Virus record (IMG/VR): IMGVR_UViG_3300027985_001430
Span: 1-25,440 of that record
DNA from: a virus
Direction: 5' to 3' (one strand)
DNA length: 25,440 bases
Under the pieces are notes generated by a model that saw only the letters and a list, made by a program, of their open reading frames with translations, ran no database searches and was not told the DNA's origin. The position numbers were made by a program, and so were the translations under genes. Shown piece by piece: positions 21,279-25,239 of the stretch. The stretch's first letter is position 1, and every line of letters begins with the position of its first letter.

Positions 21279-21443
21279 TTAATTTGGGTAACTTTTGCGC
21301 CAAATCTCTATTTTTTTAGAGTATTTCTCTAACCTCGCTTTATTCCTGAATAATCGGTAATTTTTACACTTCTTTTTCATGCAATAATTGAATACTTTGC
21401 CGGTCTTAATCTCCTCCTGTTTCCTCAAGCAGTAAAAAATCAT
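21279..21443 (-). CDS. 54-residue basic Cys-containing protein
   Basis: From ATG 21443 (overlapping the methyltransferase stop as ATGA) the minus strand encodes 54 residues starting MIFYCLRKQEEIKTGKVF, with NYCMKKKCKNYR, ending WRKSYPN before TAA at 21279. Cys5, Cys21 and Cys26 with many Lys/Arg suggest a small nucleic-acid-binding or metal-binding protein, though a full four-ligand site is not visible. It fills the 170-bp gap before the small terminase gene with 13 bp to spare. Confidence 0.7.
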   Translation of the reverse strand: MIFYCLRKQEEIKTGKVFNYCMKKKCKNYRLFRNKARLEKYSKKIEIWRKSYPN

Positions 21444-22678
21444 AATTTCTTAGCCTTAAGCGATGTATGCTCCTCCCAGCGCTTGATAATAACATCAACA
21501 TATTTGGGGTCCAATTCCATACAAAAACATTTCCTTTTAAGTTGATCACACGCCATAAGCGTTGATCCAGAACCGCCAAATAGGTCAACTACAATATTTC
21601 CTCTTTCGCTGTTTTTCTTTAAAGCCCTTTCGGGAAGTCGTAATGGTTTTTGAGTAGGATGCACGTAATTCTGCGTAACATCCCTTTTCTCATACCAAAC
21701 ATCCATCAGCTCGCTGAAATCATCGAAATCCAAATGAAATACATCTTTTAAATTATTTATTTTCTTATTTTTAAAATGACTCTTTTTATTTTTCCAACCA
21801 ACCATGCATGGCTCATACTGCCGATGATAATCCTGCCCGCGTGAAAATACCATTGAATTTTTAAGCCAAATAATAATCTGGCTCATATGCCAGCCAGCCT
21901 GTTCAAAGGCCTGCCGGTTTATCCAGTTATTCTTATTGGCAAACCACCAATAAATCGTTACGTCATCAGTCGTGTGATTATATAAATTTTTTAAAATATC
22001 GGTGTAAAATTCCAGACATTCTTTATCGGTTTTTTTGTCGTTGAATATTTTGCCACCACTCCCGCCGAATTTAGTTGAACTGTAATCTAGTCCACCCGGC
22101 GATTTGTAATCAACATTATAGGGCGGGTCCGTAAATACCATTCTCCCAAGTTTGCCGTCCATTAATTTCTCAACATCTTCCGCTTTGGCTGAATCACCAC
22201 ACATTAAGCGATGTTCTCCCAGTTGATAAATATCTCCCAGTTTTGCATTTGGCTTTTTGATTTTCTTATACTCCTCTTCGGCATCAAACTCATCCTCTTC
22301 AATCTCGGCTATAAGATCCTTGTCAAAACCAGTTAATTCCAAAATACTCTCATCAAGCTCTTTTAATTCTTCAATTACCAATTCCATCTCCCAATCACTC
22401 TCATTAAGCTTATTATCTGCCAGACGATAAGCTTTGGCCTTTTTAGCTGGAAGATTAACCGTAATGCAGGGCACTACTTTTAATTTAAGCAACTTAGCGG
22501 CTTCAAACCTCCCATGTCCGACTATGATCACTTTGTTCTTATCCAAAACCAGGGGCTGGTTAAAACCAAACTCCTTGATGCTGTCAGCAATCTGTTTGAT
22601 CTGTTTAGCCGGGTGCTTTTTAGCATTCTTCTCGTATGGTTTTATGTCTTCAATTTTTATTTCCTCCTCTTTTGCCAT
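21440..22678 (-). CDS. ParB/Srx-domain DNA methyltransferase (N6-adenine or N4-cytosine)
   Basis: A 412-residue fusion. Residues about 8-115 form a ParB-like N-terminal domain (IKPYEKNAKKHPAKQIKQIA, GHGRFEAAKLL at 54-64, KAYRLADNKLNESDW). Residues about 145-405 are an amino-methyltransferase: LGEHRLMCGDSAKAEDV, motif IV TDPPYNVDY (DPPY at 184-187), HPTQKP, and motif I DLFGGSGST at 365-373. The order IV before I is the beta class. It would methylate phage DNA, most likely against host restriction or to mark packaging or replication. No restriction endonuclease gene is adjacent, so it is an orphan enzyme. The target sequence cannot be read from the gene. Confidence 0.95.
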   Translation of the reverse strand: MAKEEEIKIEDIKPYEKNAKKHPAKQIKQIADSIKEFGFNQPLVLDKNKVIIVGHGRFEAAKLLKLKVVPCITVNLPAKKAKAYRLADNKLNESDWEMELVIEELKELDESILELTGFDKDLIAEIEEDEFDAEEEYKKIKKPNAKLGDIYQLGEHRLMCGDSAKAEDVEKLMDGKLGRMVFTDPPYNVDYKSPGGLDYSSTKFGGSGGKIFNDKKTDKECLEFYTDILKNLYNHTTDDVTIYWWFANKNNWINRQAFEQAGWHMSQIIIWLKNSMVFSRGQDYHRQYEPCMVGWKNKKSHFKNKKINNLKDVFHLDFDDFSELMDVWYEKRDVTQNYVHPTQKPLRLPERALKKNSERGNIVVDLFGGSGSTLMACDQLKRKCFCMELDPKYVDVIIKRWEEHTSLKAKKL

Positions 22679-23054
22679 TTGATTCTGTATTTATAATATA
22701 AATATCTTTTATCGCTTTTTTATTGAATTTGCCGGATTTCATGACCTTTAAATAAGCCCTGGCCAGCTTATCAATAATATCTTCAATGTATTTTTTATAC
22801 CTTTTTATATCCTCAAAATTGCCCACTTTCATGCCCTGCAGGCTCCTGAGTGCCGGATCGCGCGGAACTTCAATGTGCCGGTTAATGTTCGCTCTTTCGG
22901 CTTTGCCGTCCTGATAGCGGATTAATACCGGCAGGGCGCCGACAATAAAAAACTGCGGTTTTTTAGCCAGGATACCGCTTTTGGTCTGAAAGCTGTGGTT
23001 AAAATCAACTTTCAGATAAAGATTATTTTGAATTTTAGTTTTTAAATTATTCAT
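22650..23054 (-). CDS. Hypothetical protein between the initiator and methyltransferase genes
   Basis: Start taken at ATG 23054 (MNNLKTKIQNNLYLKVDFNH, 134 residues), an 8-bp overlap with the initiator stop; a longer frame to 23159 would lie inside that gene. The N-terminal part is beta-rich (QFFIVGALPVLIRYQDGK). The C-terminal part is helical (FEDIKRYKKYIEDIIDKLAR) and ends Lys/Gly/Asn rich. It overlaps the methyltransferase start by 29 bp. No family recognised; its place in the replication block suggests a DNA metabolism role. Confidence 0.75.
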   Translation of the reverse strand: MNNLKTKIQNNLYLKVDFNHSFQTKSGILAKKPQFFIVGALPVLIRYQDGKAERANINRHIEVPRDPALRSLQGMKVGNFEDIKRYKKYIEDIIDKLARAYLKVMKSGKFNKKAIKDIYIINTESNGKRGGNKN

Positions 23055-23766
23055 ATGGTCGGTCTTTGTTCGGTCTAAAAAATTTTTTAAAGCCTGCTTC
23101 CTTGGCCAGCCCCATGGCACAAGCTCCTTTGTTTTTTGCGGTAGTGCTTTCTCCCACATCGATTAATATCTCAATAGTTTTTTGAAATCCGATTTGGTTT
23201 ATAACTTTGAGCCAGACTTTTAAATTTTTGTGATCATTTATTTTATCCAGCTGATATTCTAATTGCCCTCTCTGAGTATCCGATAGCGAGTTATCCACAT
23301 TTTGAAAATCAACGTTAACGTTGGATTTAGTAATATGATTATTAGTATTATGATTGTGTTCGTTTTGACGAACGGTTAAGGGGGTTTTGCGTTCTTTTTG
23401 ACGAACGGAACTGTTCGTTTTAAGGAACGGTTCAGCCAAGTCGTTCGTTTTAACGAACAGTTCGTCAACCTTGCCGGTCATTTTTATATACAGCTTATTA
23501 CCCTCCCGCCAGGTTTCGATATACCCGGCTTTGGCGATTTTTTTCACCCTCTCCGAAACTCGGCTTTTGGCTTTTATTCTGAGTAATGGCATCTCTTCCA
23601 GTAGATAGGCAAAATTAACCCAGGTAAAGCCGTTCTGGCGGTGTTTTTCCACTTTTTCACTTCTTGATGAACAGAGATAATATAAATAATCGAGAATGGC
23701 GCCATCGATTATATCGAGATCCGTTTTGGCCAGTATAATTTGATTGATATTGATGTTATACTTCAT
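23047..23766 (-). CDS. Replication initiator with winged-helix domain (lambda O-like arrangement)
   Basis: A 239-residue protein. Residues about 15-97 form a winged helix: DIIDGAILDYLYYLCSS, VNFAYLLEEMPLLRIKAKS, RVSERVKKIAKAGYIETWRE, then KLYIKMTGK. Residues 102-137 are a low-complexity linker (FVKTND, FLKTNS, VRQKE, VRQNE) whose DNA is a set of iterons, the same design as lambda O, in which the origin sits inside the initiator gene. The C-terminal domain (about 165-239) is helical and may contact helicase or loader. It lies in the early block next to an ATPase and is preceded by a structured leader with alternative pairing. Assignment is by architecture, not by a recognised family name. Confidence 0.78.
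   Translation of the reverse strand: MKYNININQIILAKTDLDIIDGAILDYLYYLCSSRSEKVEKHRQNGFTWVNFAYLLEEMPLLRIKAKSRVSERVKKIAKAGYIETWREGNKLYIKMTGKVDELFVKTNDLAEPFLKTNSSVRQKERKTPLTVRQNEHNHNTNNHITKSNVNVDFQNVDNSLSDTQRGQLEYQLDKINDHKNLKVWLKVINQIGFQKTIEILIDVGESTTAKNKGACAMGLAKEAGFKKFFRPNKDRPYE
23291..23463. other. Candidate phage replication origin (iterons, A/T-rich region, DnaA box)
   Basis: Four copies of a palindromic repeat, GTTCGTTTTRACGAAC with small variations, begin at 23358, 23391, 23413 and 23443 (spacing 33, 22 and 30 bp). Most copies go on into GGTT or AGTT. The best copy is a 7+2+7 palindrome (GTTCGTT/AACGAAC). Next to them, 23300-23357 has only about 13 G/C of 58 bases by my count and includes the 12-bp palindrome AACGTTAACGTT (23311-23322). 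At 23291-23299 is TTATCCACA, a perfect consensus DnaA box. Iterons, a melting region and a DnaA box together inside an initiator gene match a theta-type origin as in lambda. Confidence 0.8.
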
Positions 23767-24047: not shown

Positions 24048-25205
24048 TTACTTAGCATCTTTGGCCTCCTTTCTAGCTTTTACCGTTTTTTTTACGCTGT
24101 TTTTATTATCATTCGCCACATCAGGAAACTCCTTGGCAAAATGATCCTTAATATTTATTTTTAATGTTTCGAGTCCGGCCTCAAGTTCAGCCAAACCTTT
24201 CTGTTTTATTTCCTCCCAGCTGTTGGTGTTAAAAACCAACTCTGATATTTCAATCCGTGATTTCTTGTCAGCCGCACCGGTGCTTGGCCAGGCTTTGAAT
24301 AACTCATTGGTAATTTTTTCCAGAGTTATCTCTTTGTTTCTGATATACTGCCTTTTGTCCTCCTCGGTTTTAAACAAACCGCTTGAGTCTGTTTCAGTCA
24401 CCTCCCTTCTTTCCGGATTGGCCAGCATATCGTCAATGGCCGGGGCAAAATTCTCAAAGTTTGGATTAATGAAAGTTTTGCCGTCAATTAAAGTCGACCG
24501 GTCTTTAATGACTGTAGCCTGGCGATATACTTTTTTATCCTTACCCAAAATCTCTTCAAACCTTTCCATAAGGACCAGAATATCCGGTTCATAGGCGGTT
24601 TCTCCCTCGACTTTCATTTTGACTCCCGATTTATAAATTTCCCTTTTGCCGGTGTCCGCATTAATCTCATTCTCGTATTCATATCCGGCTCTACCGCACA
24701 TGATGATGTGATACGGATCCCTAACTAATGGATCGGAAAATTCAGCTTTCCACATCGGCTTCAAGATTCCCCAGTCCTGGAACTGCAGATGATTGCGGTT
24801 CATTTTCCTCTTAAACGCTTCAACCGTGTCCTCCCAGACATGGGAAATTGAGTCAATCAGGAAAATATCACTGATCCCGGTTTCTCTCATGATTCGCATT
24901 GACTCCTTTAAATCAGCCAATGTCCTTGATTCCTTAACCAACAGTTCAATCCCCGCTTCATTAAATACTCTTTTTAAGAACTTAGCCGCCTTTTCAGTGT
25001 CGAACATGACAATTGGCTTTTTCGATTTAATCTTTTGATGTAAACCGATTGCCACCAAAGCTGATGTGTAGGTTTTACCTGATCCGGCAAACCCCTCAAA
25101 AGCGGCTTTAAAATACGGCTTGGTATTGGCCACCTGCATAAAAAAGTTGGCCAAATTTTTTGTAGACTGCGCCGTTGCAGCCTTTGTTAATGTTTTTGAT
25201 TGCAT
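24048..25205 (-). CDS. RecA-like AAA ATPase (AAA_24, phage Sak4-like annealing/recombination ATPase)
   Basis: Start taken at ATG 25205 (MQSKTLTKAA, 385 residues); ATGs at 25217 and 25238 are in frame and possible. The ATPase core has Walker A GFAGSGKT (38-45), a MFDTEKAA strand-helix, Walker B DIFLIDSIS (Asp118) with SHVWED next, and a later QATVIKDRSTLIDGK region. It matches AAA_24/Sak4 proteins, which help single-strand DNA annealing and recombination in phages. The C-terminal third is helical and charged, ending in a basic tail (KKTVKARKEAKDAK). It is the first gene of the minus-strand unit in this window. Confidence 0.88.
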   Translation of the reverse strand: MQSKTLTKAATAQSTKNLANFFMQVANTKPYFKAAFEGFAGSGKTYTSALVAIGLHQKIKSKKPIVMFDTEKAAKFLKRVFNEAGIELLVKESRTLADLKESMRIMRETGISDIFLIDSISHVWEDTVEAFKRKMNRNHLQFQDWGILKPMWKAEFSDPLVRDPYHIIMCGRAGYEYENEINADTGKREIYKSGVKMKVEGETAYEPDILVLMERFEEILGKDKKVYRQATVIKDRSTLIDGKTFINPNFENFAPAIDDMLANPERREVTETDSSGLFKTEEDKRQYIRNKEITLEKITNELFKAWPSTGAADKKSRIEISELVFNTNSWEEIKQKGLAELEAGLETLKINIKDHFAKEFPDVANDNKNSVKKTVKARKEAKDAK

Positions 25206-25215
25206 ATAATTCTGC

Positions 25216-25239
25216 ATTGGACTCTCGCAAAAATCCAAT
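25216..25239. promoter_or_regulatory. Inverted repeat before the ATPase gene
   Basis: ATTGGA (25216-25221) and TCCAAT (25234-25239) are perfect 6-bp arms with a 12-bp spacer. They stand directly upstream of the ATPase start at 25205 and overlap the -35/-10 area of a weak plus-strand promoter (TTGGAC 25217-25222, 16 bp, TATTAT 25239-25244). It could be an operator for either direction. Chance remains possible for arms this short. Confidence 0.35.

Follow-up and report, generated by a model that had tools for sequence, protein, structure and literature searches.

Where does a virus of uncultured bacteria begin to copy its DNA, and whose proteins does it call upon to do so? The question is raised by a single gene of the virus record IMGVR_UViG_3300027985_001430, whose 25,440 bases, possibly a fragment, are called here the window. 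The portal, capsid, protease, tail-tube and amidase genes of the window lie on the minus strand, as does the gene of a putative winged-helix initiator, and in the linker-coding part of the latter a preliminary description had noticed four palindromic iterons next to an A/T-rich region and a perfect DnaA box. It had taken these for a probable lambda-style origin making use of host DnaA. That an origin is embedded in the initiator gene and bound by its own initiator is well favoured by the comparative analysis reported here, and for the additional step, assistance of this origin by the host's DnaA, the balance tips slightly towards the affirmative. What is directly observed is the sequence elements, a conservation that exceeds the demands of coding, and a DnaA box that most close-subfamily genes retain while its place shifts.

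Along the gene the elements succeed one another as four iterons, an A/T-rich tract, a 14-bp palindrome and the DnaA box (Table 1).

Table 1. Coordinates of the candidate origin, its gene and the adjoining genes in the window.
Feature	Position	Strand	Basis or remark
Iteron 1, GTTCGTTTTAACGAAC	23443..23458	+	pattern scan
Iteron 2, GTTCGTTTTAAGGAAC	23413..23428	+	pattern scan
Iteron 3, GTTCTTTTTGACGAAC	23391..23406	+	pattern scan
Iteron 4, GTTCGTTTTGACGAAC	23358..23373	+	pattern scan
A/T-rich, trinucleotide-periodic tract, probable unwinding element	23326..23352		overlaps two 14-mers 15 bp apart
Perfect 14-bp palindrome, CAACGTTAACGTTG	23310..23323		between tract and DnaA box; core kept in close subfamily; unmentioned in the preliminary description
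Perfect DnaA box, TTATCCACA	23291..23299	+	sole perfect box in the window
Predicted recognition helix, aa 67-79	23530..23568	-	model; residue 68 (23563-23565) changes with iteron type
Initiator gene	23047..23766	-	239 aa; winged helix about aa 1-106, disordered linker 107-158, C-terminal helical domain 163-223
ATPase gene, neighbour of the initiator	24048..25238	-	profile match, PHROG 1366 (function unknown)
Next gene in the cluster, extent as listed	22650..23159	-	ORF list

A gene that looks by eye like the ATPase gene also lies upstream of the initiator in two related prophages (L021 and L022). The real start of the next gene in the cluster is probably an ATG near 23054, which would make it overlap the initiator stop. 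Near the left end of the record, a Fic/DOC-family gene (1857-2942) has weak winged-helix matches in its tail. A match to the profile PHROG 7405 is found at the ParB-like beginning of a methyltransferase gene (21440-22678) and again in the C-terminal part of the initiator (23098-23280), so that one domain may be common to ParB-like and initiator proteins. A Pfam scan of 20 window proteins (20 of the 68 listed ORFs, in a record that may be a fragment) recognised no helicase, primase or helicase loader. The GC-skew peak that had been anticipated at 23.3-23.5 kb is missing: the skew climbs to about zero at 23.0-23.75 kb without reversal on either side, and it is uninformative here because the main genes are all on one strand.

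The iterons are 16-bp palindromes of the form GTTC-N8-GAAC, which follow each other at start-to-start distances of 33, 22 and 30 bp in plus-strand order. Allowing up to three mismatches, one finds the 16-mer pattern 10 times in the window where 1.61 are expected; seven of the ten lie at the array (both strands counted), and none of 100 shuffles reaches 10. Codon-preserving shuffles of the gene, which has four, gave at most three palindromes in 20,000 trials, and this in 27 of them. The repeat is moreover translated in two frames within the gene, as FVKTN and as VRQNE, which makes the DNA rather than the peptide the repeating unit.

How far are these features shared? A scan of viral contigs yielded 18 related loci, two of them copies, and a genome scan added four, from MAGs whose titles read Paceibacterota, Falkowbacteria, Gracilibacteria and Thaumarchaeota. 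In profile searches against genomes, matches numbered 3/379 in the phylum of genome G001, 4/380 in its class, 3/288 in the class of G003 and 4/111 in the order of G002, samples that overlap, contain the query genomes and include two weak matches later dropped (L071, L075). The close subfamily is made up of 14 rows with the C-terminal domain in common, whole or in part, and the wider family of 11 more that have the winged helix and a linker of repeats plus tract, with different C-termini. Left out were the window's own rows (L001, L002), L011 and L014 as duplicates of L010 and L013, and the dropped pair, both weak partial matches with internal TGA; repeat fetches of the same places (L025-L035, L037-L043, L046-L069, L216-L220) were uncounted, and a human-gut phage record (L080, E 0.1) was excluded from use. 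Three partial genes (L008, L009, L074) were kept, and the distant L044, L045 and L070 stand outside the subfamily counts.

Across this set the iteron spacing, whose comparison in relatives had been proposed in the preliminary description, is recurrent at 22, 30 and 33-34 bp. In gene order it reads 30-22-33 in the window, L003, L004, L005 and L072, 33-22-34 in L015 and L016, 33-22-22 in L010 and L012, 30-22-24 in L036, and 22-24 or 22-23 in L013, L023 and L024. Deviating arrangements are found in L006 (31-24), in L007, L022 and L073 (43-24, with degenerate palindromes) and in L021 and L074 (52-33), while L017-L020 carry other repeats and no GTTC-type iterons. In none of the 28 genes compared is the linker peptide kept with the palindromes gone, the outcome by which the preliminary description would have been refuted: peptides change, and lost palindromes take the peptide with them, as iteron 2 has done in L021 and L074. 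As a search pattern for viral contigs, two adjacent perfect iterons gave no match, and a palindrome plus half-box matched six contigs, five of them known members; the sixth match (L221, 7250-7295) lies at an unrelated phage gene boundary and is probably due to chance.

The A/T-rich tract is made of repeated AAT/CAT/ACT codons, and A+T reaches 79% over 23323-23356. On its minus strand it includes a family motif, ATAATACTA, which is exact in 20 of the 28 genes checked and has one mismatch at the tract in four more, being absent from the tract region of L074, L044, L045 and L070. As a lone marker the motif was tried and abandoned: its 16-mer matched at least 120 viral-contig stretches, and of 80 loci examined only L135 is initiator-like, as the best initiator-profile match among them (E 0.1). 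Outside the family, then, the motif has no diagnostic value. Nor do we claim a DnaA-trio reading of the tract: the (.A.) pattern fits, but most runs of Asn codons would fit too. In the DnaA-box/DnaA-trio system (BUS), as outlined in a section of PMC8287927, the box lies 0-16 bp from at least three trios; the perfect box of the window ends some 23-26 bp before the tract, beyond this limit, the published program allows two mismatches, and Asn codons make trio-like runs trivial. Between tract and box, the second palindrome has a 12-bp core, AACGTTAACGTT, that is exact in 13 of the 14 subfamily rows and confined to the close subfamily among the loci checked.

The constraint on these stretches was measured by comparing same-residue codon pairs among seven divergent representatives of the subfamily, with the expectation drawn from codon usage. 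The winged helix stays near expectation, with 511 identical codons among 1141 pairs (473 expected); the iteron region has 222 among 288 (130), the A/T tract 82 among 83 (40), the 14-bp palindrome all of its 72 (32) and the box region 20 among 26 (14). None of 20,000 column permutations reaches the excess seen in the linker. The C-terminal part also exceeds expectation (488 of 822 against 350), partly on account of its last codons, a separate feature: these (TTTAGACCGAACAAAGACCGAC, window 23047-23079) are as frozen as the origin, with 76 of 77 same-residue pairs identical, and possibly represent one more DNA element or a signal used by the overlapping gene that follows. Just before TTTAGACCGAACAAAGACCGAC, L003, L004 and L008 have seven T against the window's six, which gives a shorter protein, the DNA beyond being nearly identical. 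Could the repeats nevertheless be the mere echo of a repetitive peptide? The linkers are of low complexity, as that explanation would have it, yet we give it practically no credence, for their synonymous codons are nearly frozen, one repeat serves two frames and codon shuffles never give four palindromes. The earlier statement that the linker is repetitive because the DNA is repetitive is thereby supported, and the linker peptide would be a by-product of DNA signals.

What kind of protein might bind the array? For the window initiator no Pfam family rises above its curated cut-off, DUF2067 (E 0.019) being the only one reported and lying under its own; the PHROG matches are 7405 (C-terminal part, E 6e-5) and 8453, both of unknown function, and no replication-initiation profile of either collection is matched. 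Among 19 aligned family members, phrog_270 (replication initiation) is matched by six, the window protein not among them, and an O-like PHROG by one. The RepA_N Pfam profile is absent for the window protein at E 0.1 and for all 19 members at E 0.01, and no convincing match came out of sequence searches against solved structures (best E 0.48 and 0.049). In an AlphaFold2 model (mean pLDDT 69.8, pTM 0.42), linker residues 107-158 fall under pLDDT 50 and are flanked by two better predicted domains. Structural comparison identifies the N-terminal one as a winged helix: it aligns over 103-106 residues, at Z 7.4-7.8, with 4pql, 4pt7, 4pta and 5kbj, whose titles read initiator, Rep or DNA binding protein and which we take to be pSK41-type N-terminal domains, scores that are tied with those of many unrelated winged helices, repressors included. 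The four-helix C-terminal domain has no clear PDB match, and its best score (Z 6.2, to an RNA-binding domain) may reflect merely a common helix arrangement; a second structural comparison covered 36 chains. These are the results that bear on a DnaD-like C-terminal domain of the pSK41 / RepA_N kind, and a figure legend in PMC13059738 has a DnaD-like initiator among mapped phage genes. By these searches the initiator would belong to no named family.

The best evidence in the analysis that this protein would bind the iterons comes from covariation. In the 26 genes with a complete N-terminus, residue 68 is Ser alongside GTTCG/CGAAC-type repeats in nine and Gly alongside GTTCA/TGAAC-type repeats in seven; three closely related genes pair Ser-Ala with hybrid repeats, and the iteron type is unclassifiable in the remaining seven (L017-L020, L044, L045, L070). 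L010, L012 and L013 contain contrary single half-site strings, and the window, L004, L005 and L072 have one TGAAC each. In the predicted recognition helix a single residue thus varies in step with one palindrome base, which ties the initiator to the repeats. Mapped onto the winged-helix tree, the Ser/CG label calls for three changes, only one of them forced by well-supported branches, so that the covariation rests on few independent changes.

The reading that we prefer is a theta-type phage origin inside its own initiator gene. Dimers of the initiator would bind the four phased palindromes through their winged helices, as the covariation suggests, then wrap the DNA and melt the adjoining A/T tract, as could be expected from the layout and by analogy with lambda and plasmids; host DnaA on the nearby TTATCCACA might aid opening of the tract or delivery of the host helicase. 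Codon freezing, codon shuffles and covariation all support the earlier placing of a probable origin in this gene. The palindromes might instead act in repression of the operon, or in plasmid-like segregation of a prophage, and have no part in the start of replication, a proposal helped by the equal scores that winged helices of other function (AspA, TubR, MarR and LexA types) and initiators obtain. We consider it very improbable: the array lies mid-gene with a tract and a DnaA box adjoining, promoter-like sites in the region are at chance level (2 against 2.9 expected) with none at the array, and both the phrog_270 matches in the family, which do not include the window protein, and the annotation of Campylobacter and Tetrasphaera phage relatives as RepO or replication initiation proteins speak for replication.

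The DnaA step demands an argument of its own. Neither the loose consensus TTWTNCACA (2 matches against 3.12 expected) nor TTATCCACA with one mismatch (9 against 7.49) is enriched in the window, and the box therefore needed comparative support, which the subfamily supplied. A perfect TTATCCACA is present in 11 of the 14 close-subfamily genes, in three places and both orientations: at gene position 468 in the window, L003, L004, L005 and L008, at the roughly aligned position 444 in L007, L022 and L073 (the two may be a single inherited gain), at 328, in opposite orientation and between iterons 1 and 2, in L072 and L009, and at 297, ahead of iteron 1, in L074; in the partial genes L008 and L009 the place was assigned by alignment. 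L021 has only TTATCCCCA at 328, L023 only TTATTCACA at 429, and L006 no box even with one mismatch in the gene and 300 bp around it. When the 14 genes were shuffled with codons preserved, 20,000 trials gave a box in at most five of them; with one gene per cluster, four of seven clusters have it against a shuffle maximum of three, and 500 permuted 9-mers attained at most one cluster. The flanks of the close subfamily are free of perfect boxes over 74,643 nt.

Outside the close subfamily, none of the 11 wider-family genes has a perfect box; of the distant genes, L044 has one and L045 and L070 have none. The wider-family flanks, 56,579 nt in all, hold eight perfect boxes at 6 of 11 loci, four of the eight outside any ORF of at least 50 aa. 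They lie at L010 1897, 2182 and 4803, L012 1818, L013 1396, L020 2658, L024 613 and L036 1764, and on one strand five of them read AAGTTATCCACAG(A/G)T.

Two other accounts of the box compete with an assisting DnaA. An origin run by the initiator alone, in the manner of lambda or pSK41, would leave the box with no DnaA role, as a by-product of VDN/VDK codons or of shared ancestry. The protein context does raise the chance of a box to at most about 0.10 per gene, three of the 14 subfamily genes are without a perfect one, L006 entirely, and so are the 11 wider-family genes; set against this are the 11 boxes in three places and two orientations, beyond anything the shuffles produced in genes or in clusters, and we hold this account for doubtful, while granting it some weight. 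The box might otherwise control transcription near the origin, as activator site or roadblock, and have nothing to do with melting or helicase loading. Part of PMC3985674 describes DnaA-protected, DnaA-box-like sites of lambda downstream of the pO promoter, and in the wider family the box at L012 1818 stands, by eye, beside a promoter-like sequence; no promoter-like site adjoins the window's box, however, and the place of the box shifts within the origin array, which leaves a transcriptional role unlikely. The preliminary description thus gains comparative backing for a link to host DnaA, direct use of which can at present only be surmised.

On the host side, a DnaA domain IV match was obtained in six of seven genomes examined. 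The GGRDHTT motif of DnaA, which reads TTATCCACA, is found in five of six host-side genomes, and G003 has GNRNHTT. Within 2.5 kb of six host dnaA genes the boxes are mostly imperfect, with one perfect box in total, and ACGTTAACGT, the core of the second palindrome, was not found in six smaller host dnaA loci. Genome-wide, TTATCCACA shows no enrichment over its reversed control in the named prophage hosts G001 (8 against 7) and G002 (9 against 9), and exceeds it in the other four genomes searched.

Who are these hosts? Prophage L021 lies on the same contig as rpoA, rplQ, rplM and rpsI, ribosomal and RNA polymerase genes, and L022 on the same contig as ftsZ; the head and tail gene order of L021 is that of the window, large terminase excepted (all by eye). 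With relatives sitting as prophages beside host genes in Paceibacterota and Falkowbacteria MAGs, integration in Patescibacteria is indicated for this phage group. The host of the window is likely a Paceibacterota-like patescibacterium, judging from its relatives, in line with the candidate-phylum host envisaged earlier. L024, in the MAG titled Thaumarchaeota, has its kin in Patescibacteria and is possibly a mis-binned contig. By tblastn, more remote relatives are found in the phages Campylobacter PC22 and DA10 (RepO) and Elizabethkingia TCUEAP2 (E 1e-4 to 5e-4), with Fusobacterium phiFN37 (E 0.7) and Tetrasphaera TJE1 (E 0.03) doubtful kin at such values; those of Campylobacter and Tetrasphaera phages are annotated RepO or replication initiation protein. 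The Campylobacter, Elizabethkingia, phiFN37 and TJE1 genes have, by eye, a similar N-terminus and mid-gene repeats of their own, followed by an A/T-rich tract in all named phage relatives except TJE1. They differ from the window in repeat sequences and C-termini, at 25-33% identity.

Taken jointly, the data allow a bolder reading, conceivable as a whole although we would sooner doubt than adopt it. A lineage of Patescibacteria phages would have host DnaA as obligatory partner, a single free-floating box, on either side of the array or inside it and kept while moving, taking the place of a phage helicase loader. A single residue in the recognition helix would largely determine specificity, Ser going with GTTCG and Gly with GTTCA, and by this simple code origins could switch compatibility group, while CAACGTTAACGTTG would mark a further host or phage factor. 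The candidate gives phages of reduced bacteria that are not in culture an origin that is short, precisely placed and open to test, and its relatives document how DnaA boxes turn over in nature, much as they were moved in the engineered origins of P1. Should DnaA prove necessary, the phages would depend on the initiator of the host chromosome, and the module might underlie a replicating vector in hosts for which genetic tools are scarce. Among the best matches in the open-access literature there was no paper on an origin or a DnaA box in Patescibacteria phages.

How does the locus compare with known origins? In lambda, according to passages of PMC5043065, O dimers occupy four inverted repeats within O and an adjacent 40-bp A/T region opens; PMC3985674 describes a pair of DnaA-box-like sites close to where O begins. 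The window has both the inverted-repeat iterons inside an initiator gene and the adjoining A/T-rich region, and in layout "lambda-style" is apt. It differs in its repeats (16 bp instead of 19), in the perfect DnaA box beside the array, in a protein without sequence match to a lambda O family, and in that no P-like loader was recognised among the 20 ORFs scanned out of the 68 listed in this possibly incomplete record. An equally good parallel is pSK41, where, according to PMC5703833, the origin lies centrally in rep and the encoded residues are dispensable; the same review states for staphylococcal plasmids that plasmid DnaA boxes have not been detected. The window resembles the RepA_N type in its origin-like array mid-gene between two domains; it departs from it in a protein without RepA_N profile match and a C-terminal domain without clear PDB match.

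Iteron plasmids furnish the third comparison. The iterons of P1, RK2, R6K and pSC101 are located outside rep. They are mostly direct repeats bound by monomers, and in P1 the DnaA sites can be deleted, one moved beside the iterons still giving a working origin (excerpts of PMC5043065). The window shares with these plasmids the combination of iterons, A/T tract and DnaA site, and differs in that its iterons are palindromes inside the gene; the natural shifts of the box, kept in 11 of 14 subfamily genes, parallel the P1 constructs. The origin would accordingly be of a known kind, in a variant absent from the best open-access matches, with a DnaA box retained yet shifting within an origin-in-gene, in phages of Patescibacteria and with an initiator of no named family.
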